Part shown: positions 1,115-45,453 of the stretch, in pieces
Numbering within the stretch: position 1 is the stretch's first letter
Layout: every line of letters starts with the position of its first letter
Assembly (NCBI RefSeq): GCF_000425365.1
Contig: NZ_AUDH01000007.1
Span: 1-64,000 of the forward strand
Source: Rubritepida flocculans DSM 14296
GTDB taxonomy: Bacteria; Pseudomonadota; Alphaproteobacteria; Acetobacterales; Acetobacteraceae
DNA: 64,000 nucleotides
Reading direction: 5' to 3'
Notes under the pieces: generated by a model
The model's database searches: none
What the model was told of the DNA's origin: nothing
Seen by the model: only the letters and a program-made list of their open reading frames with translations
Program-made: the position numbers and the translations under genes

Positions 1115-2197
1115 ATGGACATCGGCGTCTTCATTCCCATCAACAACAATGGCTGGCTGATCTCGGAGAACGCGCCGCAGTACATGCCGTCCTTCGAGCT
1201 GAACAAGACGGTGGTGCAGAAGGCCGAAGCCTATGGCATGGACTTCGCGCTGAGCATGATCAAGCTGCACGGCTTCGGGGGAAAGACCGAGTTCTGGGAC
1301 CACGGCCTCGAATCCTTCACGCTCATGGCGGGGCTCGCGGCGGTCACCTCGCGCATCAAGCTCTTCGCCTCCACGGCGGTGCTGACCATCCCGCCCGCCA
1401 TCGTCGCGCGCATGGCGGTCACCATCGACAGCATCTCGGGCGGGCGCTTCGGGGTGAACATCGTCTCGGGCTGGCACAAGATCGAATACAGCCAGATGGG
1501 GCTGTGGCCCGGCGACGAGCACTTCGCCAAGCGCTACCAGTACAGCACGGAATATGTGCAGATCCTGCGCGACCTCTGGGAGAAGGGCGAGAGCGACCTC
1601 AAGGGCGCCTATTTCCAGATGGACAAGTGCAAGCTCTCGCCCCGCCCCTCCCGGCCCATCGAGATCGTCAGCGCCGGGCAGTCGGACACGGGCATGGCGT
1701 TCGGCGCGCGCTACTGCAACTACAATTTCTGCCTCGGCGAAGGCGTGAACGAGCCCACCAAGGCGGCCTCCGTCCCCGCCCGCATGCTCGAGCACGCGAA
1801 GAAGGCGGGGCGCGATGTGGGCGCCTACATGCTCTACATGGTGATCTGCGCCGACACGGACGAGGCGGCGATGGCCAGATGGGACAGCTATGTGAAGGGG
1901 GCGGATCGCGCCGCGCTCGAGCATCTGCTGGGCCATGCGGCGCATGACGTGAACACCGAGGCGACCTCCATGGCCGCGGCGGTGCAGCGCAACCCCTCGC
2001 CCATCAACTTCAACATGGGCACGATCGTGGGCAGCCCTGCCTCCTGCGCGCGCATGCTGGACGAGGTGGCGGCGATGCCGGGCGTAAAGGGCATCATGCT
2101 CTGCTTCGACGACTTCATCCAGGGCATGGACGACTTCGGGCAGAAGATCCAGCCGCTGATGAAGTGCCGGCAGGACAGGCTGCCGCTCGCGGCTTGA
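1115..2197 (+). CDS. RutA-like FMN-dependent luciferase-family monooxygenase (orphan copy)
   Basis: 360 residues, the usual RutA size. It opens with [17 protein letters not shown] and carries [20 protein letters not shown] and [18 protein letters not shown], close to pyrimidine oxygenase RutA, which opens the uracil ring between N3 and C4 with flavin peroxide. A second RutA (35948-37030) sits in a full rutABCD operon, so this stand-alone copy may be redundant or act on another cyclic amide (inference). Differences from the operon copy include SAGQSDTG in place of CAGSSTEG in the flavin region. ATG 1115 was chosen because homology starts there. A stop-anchored hairpin repeat begins in its TGA. 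Confidence 0.8.
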
Positions 2198-2370
2198 TAC
2201 GGGCGGCATCGCATGCCGCCCGTATCGCGCGCAGGGTTGGGGGGCACCCATCGAAGCTTTGCTTCGATGGGACCCGGCGTGGCGGCTGCGCGCCAGACCA
2301 AGGGCATACCAGCGGCCGCGCCGCCTTCTCAGCGGTCAAAGCAAGCGGCCGCTGGTATGATACGGGCGGC
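2195..2370 (+). repeat. Stop-anchored hairpin repeat, copy 1 (fullest copy)
   Basis: Three stems follow each other. Stem A, 2196-2226, has perfect 14-base arms (left arm GATACGGGCGGCAT) around CGC, and its first two bases are the GA of the preceding TGA stop. A core GCGCGCAGGGTTGG (2227-2240) follows. Stem B, 2247-2271, has perfect 11-base arms (CCCATCGAAGC) around TTT. Stem C, 2306-2358, has perfect 14-base arms (left ATACCAGCGGCCGC) around 25 bases. A further half arm (GATACGGGCGGC) closes the unit at 2359-2370. Related copies lie near 5.9, 23.5, 32.0, 33.3 and 45.4 kb. Confidence 0.85.
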
Positions 2371-2409
2371 GCGAAAAAGGGCGCGTCCCGCCGGGGCGCG
2401 CCCTTCGCG
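2371..2409. terminator. Candidate bidirectional terminator hairpin between convergent genes
   Basis: AAGGGCGCG (2377-2385) pairs with CGCGCCCTT (2397-2405), extended outward by GCGAA/TTCGC, between the converging RutA-like gene and a Bug-type gene. There is no clean T-tract on either side, so termination efficiency is uncertain. Confidence 0.5.
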
Positions 2410-2451
2410 TTCCGGCGGCGGGGCGCGACACCCCGCCGCACCCTCTGCGGT

Positions 2452-3447
2452 TCAGCTCGCCGCCTGGATGTTGTAGCGTCGCGCCACCTCGCGCGCCTGG
2501 GCAAGCTCGGTCTGCATGATGCGCACGAAATCCGCGCCAAGCGGCACCGGGTTGCGCGGCAGCGTCTGCAGTTCCGTCATGCGCTGGAGCACGGCGGCGT
2601 TCTGCACGAGCTTCGGGATTTCCTGCATCATCCGCTCCGCGATGGGCTGCGGCAGGCCGCGCGGGCCCGACATGCCCACCCACTGCGTCTGAACGAGGCT
2701 CGGGAAGCCGAGCTCGGCGAAGGTCGGCACGTCCGGGAAGGCCGGCAGCCTCTGCGGCGAGGAGATGGCAAGGGCGCGCAGCGTGCCGTTCTGCATCGCG
2801 GCCACGTTGGTGGTGATCGGGTCGATCATCGTCTCGATGTGGCCGCCCAGCAGGTCACGCATGGCAGGCGCGGAGCCCGCATAGGGCGCGTGGTCGAGCT
2901 GCGTGAGGTTCGCCGTGCCCGTCAGCATCGCCCCCAGCATGTGCGGCGCCGAGCCGATGCCCGAGGAGCCATAGCGCGTGGGGCGCGTGCGCGCGGCCTG
3001 CAGGAAGTCCTGGAAGCTGCGCAGCGGGCTGTCCCCGCGCACGATCAGCACCGAAGGCGCCTCGACGAGCAGGCCGAGATGCGTGAAGTCGTTGATCGGG
3101 TCGAAGGGCAGCGTCGGCAGGGTGGCGGCCGAATAGACCATCACCGAGGCGTGCGTCATGAGGAAGGTGTAGCCGTCGGGGGCGGCCTTCGCGACATGGT
3201 CGGTGCCGATCACGCCGCCCGCGCCGGCGCGGTTCTCCACCACCACGTTCTGGCCCAGCGCCGCCTGCAGCACCGGCGCGACGAGGCGCGTCACCGTGTC
3301 CACGAGCCCGCCAGGGGGGAACTGCGCCACGAGGCGCACGGCGCCGCGCGAGGGCCAGGCGGCCTGGGCCTGGGCGGCGGTGGGGCCGAGGGCGGGGGCG
3401 GCGAGGAGGCCGGCGGCGGCCCCGAGCAGGTGGCGACGATGCATCAT
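2452..3447 (-). CDS. Bug/TTT-type tripartite tricarboxylate transporter substrate-binding protein
   Basis: 331 residues. A twin-Arg-poor Sec-type signal (MMHRRHLLGAAAGLLAAP, cleavage near AQAQA) is followed by the Bug fold: WPSRGAVRLVAQFPPGG, VVVENRAGAGGVIGTD and AAPDGYTFLM, the signature of TctC/Bug periplasmic receptors. The ligand (usually a carboxylate or amide) cannot be read from sequence. No TctA/TctB membrane partners are nearby, as is common for orphan Bug genes. ATG 3447 is preceded by GGGAGA six bases upstream, so the longer frame to 3537 is rejected. It lies downstream of the ggt-GPP34 pair on the same strand, 133 bp away. Confidence 0.9.
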   Translation of the reverse strand: MMHRRHLLGAAAGLLAAPALGPTAAQAQAAWPSRGAVRLVAQFPPGGLVDTVTRLVAPVLQAALGQNVVVENRAGAGGVIGTDHVAKAAPDGYTFLMTHASVMVYSAATLPTLPFDPINDFTHLGLLVEAPSVLIVRGDSPLRSFQDFLQAARTRPTRYGSSGIGSAPHMLGAMLTGTANLTQLDHAPYAGSAPAMRDLLGGHIETMIDPITTNVAAMQNGTLRALAISSPQRLPAFPDVPTFAELGFPSLVQTQWVGMSGPRGLPQPIAERMMQEIPKLVQNAAVLQRMTELQTLPRNPVPLGADFVRIMQTELAQAREVARRYNIQAAS

Positions 3448-3554
3448 CCATGATCTCCCAAGGGCGCCCCGCCGCGCCCCTGCACAAGCGTTGTGCAGAA
3501 ACGCCCGGCGAGGTCGTTCCGGGAGGTGATGCAGCAAGGATCGTGCCGCGGCGC

Positions 3555-3599
3555 CCTCACCCCGCGCGCAGCCGCAAACCTCACCCCGCGCGCAGCCGC
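3555..3599. repeat. Perfect 21-bp direct repeat at the 3' end of GPP34 copy 2
   Basis: Positions 3555-3575 and 3579-3599 are identical, separated by AAA (period 24). The right copy contains the last codons and TGA stop (3581-3583) of the GPP34 gene; the left copy is a duplicate of that gene end lying just downstream of it. Confidence 0.9.
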
Positions 3600-44754: not shown

Positions 44755-44810
44755 AAGCCGCGGCCCCGCACGCACATCCCCTGCCATTGCAGCGAGAGGA
44801 GATGGCGGCG

Positions 44811-45278
44811 ATGAGCGAATTGGCGGTGGGCGATGAGGCGCCGGGCTTCACCCTTCCAGCCTCGGGCGGCCGGACGGTGAGCAGCGAGGCGCTGAAGGGC
44901 CAGCCCTATCTGCTCTATTTCTACCCCAAGGCCGACACGCCGGGCTGCACCAAGCAGGCCTGCGGCATCCAGGAGGCGCTGCCGGCGCTGGGCAAGCTCG
45001 GCCTGACGGTGATCGGCGTGAGCCCGGACCCGCTGCCGCCCATCGAGAAGTTCGCGAAGAAATACGGGCTCGCCTTCCCCCTCGCCTCGGACGCCGAGCA
45101 CAAGGCCGCGACGGCCTATGGCACCTGGGTCGAGAAGAGCATGTACGGCAAGAAATACATGGGGATGGAGCGGTCGAGCTTCCTGGTCGGCGCCGATGGC
45201 CGGATCAAGGCGATCTGGCGCAAGGTGAAGCCCGAGGCGCATGCCGCGCAGGTGCTGGAGGCGGCGAAGGCGCTGTAG
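44811..45278 (+). CDS. bcp: Atypical 2-Cys peroxiredoxin (BCP type)
   Basis: 155 residues. FYPKADTPGCTKQACG gives the peroxidatic C46 and resolving C51, spaced as in E. coli BCP. VIGVSPDPLPPIEKFAKKYGLAFPLASD and SFLVGADGRI follow. Reduces hydroperoxides with thioredoxin. Of two ATGs, 44811 is preferred because AGAGGAG lies nine bases upstream; 44802 would be too close to it. Confidence 0.92.
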   Translation: MSELAVGDEAPGFTLPASGGRTVSSEALKGQPYLLYFYPKADTPGCTKQACGIQEALPALGKLGLTVIGVSPDPLPPIEKFAKKYGLAFPLASDAEHKAATAYGTWVEKSMYGKKYMGMERSSFLVGADGRIKAIWRKVKPEAHAAQVLEAAKAL

Positions 45279-45291
45279 CGGCGGGGGAAGG

Positions 45292-45316
45292 CCGGGGCGG
45301 GCGCATCCCGCCCCGG
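45292..45316. terminator. Candidate terminator hairpin between bcp and ilvC
   Basis: Perfect 10-bp stem CCGGGGCGGG / CCCGCCCCGG with a 5-base loop, 14 bp after the bcp stop, in a convergent gap. No T-tract follows. Confidence 0.5.
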
Positions 45317-45327
45317 GCCGGGCTCTC

Positions 45328-45453
45328 ATACCAGCGGCCGCTGATTTCGACTCCTGAGGAGCCGGTGCGGCCGCTGGTATGCCTTTGTTCTGGCGCGCAG
45401 CCGCCCACCAACCCTGCGCGCGATACGGTCGGCATGTGATGCCGACCGAGTCA
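45328..45453 (-). repeat. Stop-anchored hairpin repeat, copy 6 (no middle hairpin)
   Basis: Follows ilvC. Stem A 45422-45452 (one mismatch; left arm GATACGGTCGGCAT, loop GTG) contains bases of the ilvC TGA (45451-45453). The core CCAACCCTGCGCGC follows directly on GCGCAGCCGCC, exactly where copy 2 carries its CCCATCG hairpin. Stem C 45328-45380 has perfect 14-base arms ATACCAGCGGCCGC, identical to copies 1 and 2. Confidence 0.85.

Follow-up and report, generated by a model that had tools for sequence, protein, structure and literature searches.

Rhizobium intergenic mosaic elements (RIME) are alphaproteobacterial mosaics of palindromes, roughly 100-200 bp in length, for which we know of no anchoring at stop codons. 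In the cited papers, GTAG/CGTC repetitive extragenic palindromes (REPs) and bacterial interspersed mosaic elements (BIMEs), linked to REP-associated tyrosine transposases (RAYTs), are palindromic, extragenic and present in high copy number, and are themselves attacked by insertion sequences (PMC1525189); the GTAG termini of REPs often supply TAG stops (PMC3733652); SPRITE of Streptococcus pneumoniae is a small hairpin repeat enriched near gene 3′ ends (PMC3049150); and the IS1031 group of the IS5 family, which includes miniature inverted-repeat transposable elements (MITEs), prefers TNA targets and leaves a 3-bp repeat, a TGA site among them (PMC12016507), with probable TNA duplications also given for the eukaryotic NuwaII elements of the PHIS superfamily (PMC4482050). 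Here, we explored a multi-hairpin element that occurs in a 64,000-nucleotide stretch of the alphaproteobacterium Rubritepida flocculans DSM 14296 (contig NZ_AUDH01000007.1, positions 1 to 64,000; hereafter, the window) and begins inside TGA stop codons. Like the IS1031-group MITEs, it is a small, non-coding element flanked by a 3-bp TNA duplication, including TGA. Its likeness to RIME is drawn from the description of those elements rather than from sequence comparison. We consider it very probable that this repeat represents a MITE-like family of small, non-autonomous DNA transposons that duplicate their TNA target.

The evidence comes, first, from the triplets that flank the element on its left and right. 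In the 3.83-Mb genome of R. flocculans (74 contigs), 228 merged profile hits yielded 108 complete and 105 unique complete copies, the 120 incomplete hits (some truncated copies, many palindromic echoes) being excluded from the count of placements. The two triplets are TGA/TGA in 85 of these copies, TAA/TAA in 3, TGA/TAA in 2 and TAA/TGA in none, with other mixed pairs in the remaining 15; among the 90 copies with TGA or TAA on both sides, left and right covary (Fisher p=8.5e-5). A structural parser was also run over 190 loci, none of them from this genome or its close relative G018 and most from other genera (G020 is of the same genus). It returned 49 candidates, 8 of which, some clearly non-elements, lack a left TNA and were kept in the 49 but removed by the TNA filter. 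Among the TNA-flanked copies, 25 of 32 carry identical triplets (14 TGA, 6 TAA, 4 TTA, 1 TCA), whereas 2000 shuffles gave 10.8 identical pairs on average and never more than 19.

Second, the sites without the element can be read in G018, which is mostly 89-96% identical to R. flocculans across the aligned syntenic parts of the window (86% in one stretch). About 0.39 Mb of G018 (32 kb of contig C10, 160 of the 211 kb of C12, 180 of the 187 kb of C45 and 15 kb of C20) plus a few loci served for comparison with the flanks of all 105 copies. At all 10 comparable sites the element is absent and, as read by eye, the G018 gene ends there in TGA. In eight cases both flanks align with a gap of less than 500 bases (L132, L070, ilvC, L020, L071, L035, the photolyase-related gene and hsp20), and two further empty sites are those of rutA, with a TGA stop at the same codon, and of the TctC/Bug receptor gene. 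The bare event, in which gene-TGA-flank becomes gene-TGA-element-TGA-flank, is seen at 2 of the 10. At L132, GAGGGGTGA, 126 bp and TGAGCGG stand against GAGGGGTGAGCGG in G018, and the Bug site has an exact empty counterpart, CTCAACTGA followed directly by CCCC; each is a bare 3-bp duplication. The remaining eight sites are consistent with duplication, their downstream flank having diverged or bearing a further copy: ilvC reads CGGAACTGAACC and hsp20 GCGGGTGAGAG in G018, the photolyase-related site has the right flank TGAGGCTTGCGG there and a small coding indel near the stop, and a further repeat was later inserted beside the element at L035 and L070. The place 3′ of nrdB also differs from G018, though not as a clean insertion. 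Given that the triplets match and that the empty sites hold the stop, the stop anchor is the 3-bp TNA target-site duplication: the element enters a TNA triplet, which in its own genome is TGA in nearly every case, and is then flanked by two copies of this triplet. Where the target is a stop codon, the left copy still serves as the stop and the reading frame is unchanged.

How often the target is a stop was assessed with a home-made gene finder trained on the window, so that gene calls elsewhere are predictions. The left triplet falls exactly on the predicted stop of the upstream gene in 67 of the 105 copies; 22 others lie downstream of the end of a same-strand gene, 9 upstream of the start of an opposite gene and 1 inside a gene, and for 6 no gene is in view. 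TGA triplets outside the elements in the 96 loci with complete copies, from which the null was drawn in place of a random genome sample, comprise 195 stops and 275 intergenic ones, that is, 41% stops expected under neutral placement (binomial p=3e-6); a census of the window alone, its own elements included, gave 52 stops to 85 intergenic TGA. With the count restricted to sites downstream of a same-strand gene, 67 of 89 are at stops compared with 61% expected (p=0.0025). Stop codons exceed expectation, and at all 67 stops the element is oriented so as to read out of the gene, as the sequence-only reading had described for the window. Its suggestion of insertion targeted at stop sites is largely right: the stop pre-exists and is duplicated, but the specificity is for a TNA triplet, here overwhelmingly TGA. 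The stop preference is real; much of it follows from the TGA target combined with tolerance in a dense genome of 72% GC, and a modest excess remains.

Under the MITE-like interpretation, the unit that inserts at a TNA triplet, running from TACC or TACG through hairpin A, the core and hairpin C to GGTA, would be moved by a DDE-type transposase supplied in trans. Such an enzyme is suggested because the 3-bp TNA duplication is what those of the IS1031 group leave, and precise insertion with matched TNA on both sides is the mark of a cut-and-paste DDE transposase. Copies would pile up at stops given that TGA is the target and TGA within genes is mostly damaging, stop codons presumably making up a large share of the harmless TGA in a compact, high-GC genome; after insertion, the hairpins would ride as passengers in 3′ untranslated RNA. 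Effects of the hairpins on RNA decay are plausible, but no function is required for the observed pattern, as mobility alone explains the spread. The element is short, has no room for a transposase gene, is present in many copies and shows a target-site duplication by comparison with empty sites, as expected of a MITE.

Several observations weigh against this interpretation. Copies within one genome are non-independent events, and in the other genomes 7 of the 32 TNA pairs mismatch (TCA/TGA 2, TAA/TCA 2, TTA/TCA 1, TGA/TCA 1, TGA/TAA 1). The terminal inverted repeats of the hairpin element (TACC/TACG) span only about 4 bp, which is little for a DDE transposon. PMC12016507 gives an inverted repeat of 17 bp for an IS1031-group element; the strong orientation bias of the target is a further difference from the MITEs of this group. 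The ends are unlike the one IS1031-type inverted repeat quoted there and unlike five IS5-type ends, and we assign no membership in that group. No partner insertion sequence, transposase or autonomous copy was found among the PF13586 matches and contig starts searched, which cover part of the genome. There are nine PF13586 (IS5-type) matches in the genome: the five that could be delimited (L332-L336) end in CCTGAGCCTA, unlike the element, and were rejected as partners, the other four being undelimited. Nor did any of five repeat groups with boundaries, drawn from 40 contig starts and 13 contig-end loci, show a GGTA end next to TNA; two of them end in CTAG, one mostly in CTAGCC and one in GTTTA, and the fifth is presumably a duplicated EF-Tu gene. 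Finally, a symmetric TNA target predicts TGA and TCA equally, but the left triplets in R. flocculans are TRA in 99 copies, TYA in 1 (TCA) and other in 5 of 105, and those of the 49 candidates elsewhere are TRA in 32, TYA in 9 and other in 8.

This asymmetry bears on a stronger, compatible form of the interpretation, in which the transposase reads TGA asymmetrically or acts at the 3′ ends of transcribed genes, so that stop codons would be an evolved safe landing site and not a by-product. We regard it as possible but doubtful. The near absence of TYA triplets in R. flocculans speaks for it, as does the excess at stops even downstream of same-strand genes; moreover, some copies not counted as stops now lie behind another repeat (repeat X), and at two of these, L035 and L070, G018 has a TGA stop. 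However, the remaining excess is small and may reflect selection on untranslated regions (UTRs) and promoters, and tandem copies use the TGA of the neighboring copy, which is not necessarily a stop. Elsewhere, there are TTA/TTA (4) and TCA/TCA (1) duplications, and a frame-based stop test was passed by 20 of 32 TRA copies and failed by 12, with 1 of 7 testable TYA copies on an opposite stop. In R. flocculans, where the stop test covered the same strand, the right triplet is the predicted stop of an opposite gene in 2 of 105 copies (L058, L221). Somewhat less likely still, in our view, is the full scenario in which the element homes on stop codons, entering the stop, rebuilding it by duplication and appending a structured RNA tail. 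If so, tight operon junctions could survive, since the right end ..ATGA gives the ATG of the next predicted gene in 6 of 105 copies (L036, L045, L057, L089, L136, L190), with the start chosen by the simple gene finder.

In the consensus of 40 aligned copies, the ends are TGA-TACGG on the left and GGTA-TGA on the right, and the unit consists of TGA-TACGGnCGGCATGACATGCCGACCGTATC (hairpin A), a core stem GCGCGCAG/CTGCGCGC enclosing a loop that begins with GGGTTGG, a linker CAAAACAAAGG, and hairpin C, CATACCAGCGGCCGC..GCGGCCGCTGGTATG-A. It is about 129 bp long, or about 166 bp with a hairpin B in the core loop, and a few units of 96 bp have a short hairpin C. RNAalifold gave 37 paired positions, with 6 of the 37 pairs changed on both sides and pairing kept, and the core stem covaries between subfamilies (GCGCGCA/TGCGCGC and GCACGCC/GGCGTGC). 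Counts of paired arms from the parser were set aside as evidence, since its requirement of 8 of 10 pairs inflates them. Such strong conserved folding, together with the outward orientation at the 67 stops, is what would be expected of a functional 3′ UTR module (an RNA stabilizer, attenuator or rescue signal) that selection maintains at the ends of genes. Also pointing in this direction is a single, diverged copy with the core stem GCCGGCAG/CTGCCGGC, which lies in similar sequence in three species of the genus (L167 in G015, L168 in G009 and L170 in G014) next to what we take to be truA. Nonetheless, we consider such a module improbable. With 10 of 10 comparable G018 sites empty, no common ancestral regulatory site is conserved there; copies also lie upstream of the 5′ ends of opposite genes (9 of 105) and in tandem; and mobility alone accounts for the spread. 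Nor is the element a classical Rho-independent terminator, one of the functions that had been proposed for it: it has no T-tract, as none of the 105 copies shows TTTT in the first 10 nt past stem A and only 1 shows it immediately past stem C. At rutA, both genomes have a terminator-like hairpin downstream of where the element inserted. SPRITE, by contrast, has a uridine-rich, terminator-like tract, and no duplication is established for it in the excerpt of PMC3049150.

Hairpin pairs, a palindromic and mostly extragenic character, high copy number and an orientation-specific target also recall RAYT-type REPs and REPINs, which are moved on single-stranded hairpins by a Y1 tyrosine (HUH) transposase. 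We consider this origin very improbable, and a Y1/HUH mobilizer of the REP or IS200/IS605 kind, suggested by the hairpins and the one-sided target, was rejected on the absence of PF01797 and on the matched triplets. Y1_Tnp (PF01797) has no match in the genome of R. flocculans and is absent from 23 of the 24 element-bearing genomes, including G018, G032 and G038, the exception being G039, where one match to the element and two to Y1 were found. To our knowledge, HUH elements make no target duplication. The foot of the hairpin carries no GTAG/CGTC tag, and the element further differs from REPs and BIMEs in its length of about 129-166 bp and its three or four hairpins. A match to a known REP/BIME family was a possible outcome named by the sequence-only reading; the element is not a REP of the RAYT type.

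To assess the spread of the element, a covariance model was built from 40 copies, including those at 23497 and 45326, and scanned over the genome and its relatives. There are at least 141 matches at E<=0.001 in R. flocculans, a lower bound, as 150 of 11023 candidates were scored, and one in which the 40 copies match by construction. The 11-mer GCGCAGGGTTG occurs 84 times in this genome and its reversed control 0 times; TACCAGCGGCCGC occurs 164 times and its control 0 times. Including R. flocculans itself, 24 of the 80 genomes in the relatives search have a match, and several other genera of the same family are rich in copies (G032, 32; G038, 23; G034, 10; G035, 10); their hairpin arms differ, whereas the core and the TACC/GGTA ends are shared. 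When named genomes were scanned with a pattern, at least 114 stretches were returned; among the matches listed, many are from Acetobacteraceae (Roseomonas, Paracraurococcus, Siccirubricoccus, Neoroseomonas, Elioraea, Limobrevibacterium, Acidisphaera and Rhodopila), the others being from Rhodospirillales and Proteobacteria bins and other Alphaproteobacteria, with some apparently due to chance. No description of the family was found among the open-licence papers listed, as judged from titles and the starts of abstracts; within the literature searched, a stop-codon-duplicating family is thus undescribed, although overlap of a palindromic repeat with a stop as such was already known. A scan of the window against Rfam at the gathering threshold matched two tmRNA models only, and none for the hairpin element, and 11 loci scanned permissively yielded no more than 3 sub-threshold matches, to miRNA models and all at L157. 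The window contains a permuted alphaproteobacterial transfer-messenger RNA (tmRNA) gene at 58519-58842 (+).

The copies in the window are collected in the table below. The earlier count of six TGA-anchored copies stands for five complete elements, confirmed by sequence, folding and covariance model, in all of which the left TGA is the predicted stop of the upstream gene, the GA of this TGA forms the base of the 13-14-pair stem and stem C is present; the right triplet is TGA in four and TGC in the photolyase copy. The sixth place, at nrdB, is only a degenerate half with neither the 13-14-pair stem nor stem C, unreported by the covariance model and scored at 18.9 bits by the sequence profile over model positions 1-63. 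The ends given before were slightly off, because the terminal right triplet had been missed. The host gene products, RutA, the TctC/Bug receptor, a photolyase-related protein (DPRP), HSP20 and IlvC, with NrdB for the sixth place, agree with the gene names assigned before.

Copies of the hairpin element in the window and the parts of copy 1
Feature	Coordinates	Strand	Description
Copy 1	2195..2360	+	166 bp, with stem B; rutA; from sequence, folding and covariance model
Copy 1, left TGA	2195-2197		rutA stop codon
Copy 1, hairpin A	2196..2226	+	14-bp stem, base takes in the stop-codon GA
Copy 1, core	2227..2293	+	stem GCGCGCAG/CTGCGCGC, loop begins GGGTTGG
Copy 1, hairpin B (optional)	about 2244-2276	+	within the core loop
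Copy 1, hairpin C	2305..2359	+	arms CATACCAGCGGCCGC/GCGGCCGCTGGTATG
Copy 1, right TGA	2358-2360		duplicate of the left TGA
Copy 2	5837..6002	-	166 bp; TctC/Bug receptor gene stop codon
Copy 3	23497..23625	-	129 bp, subfamily 2 (GCACGCC/GGCGTGC core stem); stop of the photolyase-related gene; right triplet TGC
Copy 4	32045..32107	+	degenerate left half, stop TGA and core, without stem C; 3′ of nrdB
Copy 5	33284..33447	-	164 bp, diverged, different stem B; hsp20 stop codon
Copy 6	45326..45453	-	128 bp, without stem B; ilvC stop codon

Copies also occur side by side. At L026 and L087, head-to-tail copies have one TGA in common, and at L026 and L056 a complete tandem copy continues from the right TGA as TACGG.. 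At 2358-2370 of the window, TACGG.. after the right TGA of copy 1 is the remnant start of another copy, and L038 is alike. The core stem-loop can be duplicated in tandem, within one element or alone (L017, L021 and L089 in R. flocculans; L362, L378 and L414), and in named bacterial records it stands alone beside apparent tRNA genes, with the outer hairpins different or lacking (L354, L365, L376). A G-quadruplex core, suggested by the resemblance of the loop GGGTTGGTGTGGCGG to the thrombin aptamer, was dropped, as GG runs are inconsistent across copies: four close GG runs are found in 56 of 62 copies shorter than 140 bp and in 0 of 43 longer ones (41 scored, 2 unscored) in R. flocculans, and in 26 of 41 copies in other genomes.

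A further repeat, about 115 bp long (CTAGACAGAAAC...GGTGGGTAAC), has 30 matches in R. flocculans (L096-L123; for example, L019:1350-1465). Directly after it, TGATAC or TCATAC follows in 28 of 29 places among the matches listed, sometimes as the end of a complete element and sometimes as the first bases of an element only. Longer forms of this repeat at contig ends contain an open reading frame (ORF) starting with MEVLHPRCAGLDVHKDSVTAAVRIA, which presumably corresponds to the N-terminus of an IS110 transposase; a Pfam search with 42 aa of it gave no match. The 115-bp repeat may be a chimera, as its left end, CTAGACAGAAAC, matches the end of a different contig-breaking repeat, GAGTTTCTGTCTAG (contig starts L466/L472/L476 compared with L019). 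At L159 (G047:C243), from about position 130, a group-II-intron-like 5′ end (GTGCGCCGGGAGACC...) follows directly after the GGTA of hairpin C, and the downstream ORF is, we assume from its motifs, maturase-like.

The before-and-after sequences account for the stop anchoring of this repeat, as the stop codon itself is the duplicated target. The family is a clear example of mobile DNA for which the target triplet is also a safe site in the host, and a transposase with an apparently asymmetric preference for TGA would be worth finding. Furthermore, the copies make up a large natural set of 3′ UTR insertions, absent in the close relative G018 at every site compared, which allows the effects of structured tails on mRNA to be studied in natural insertions.

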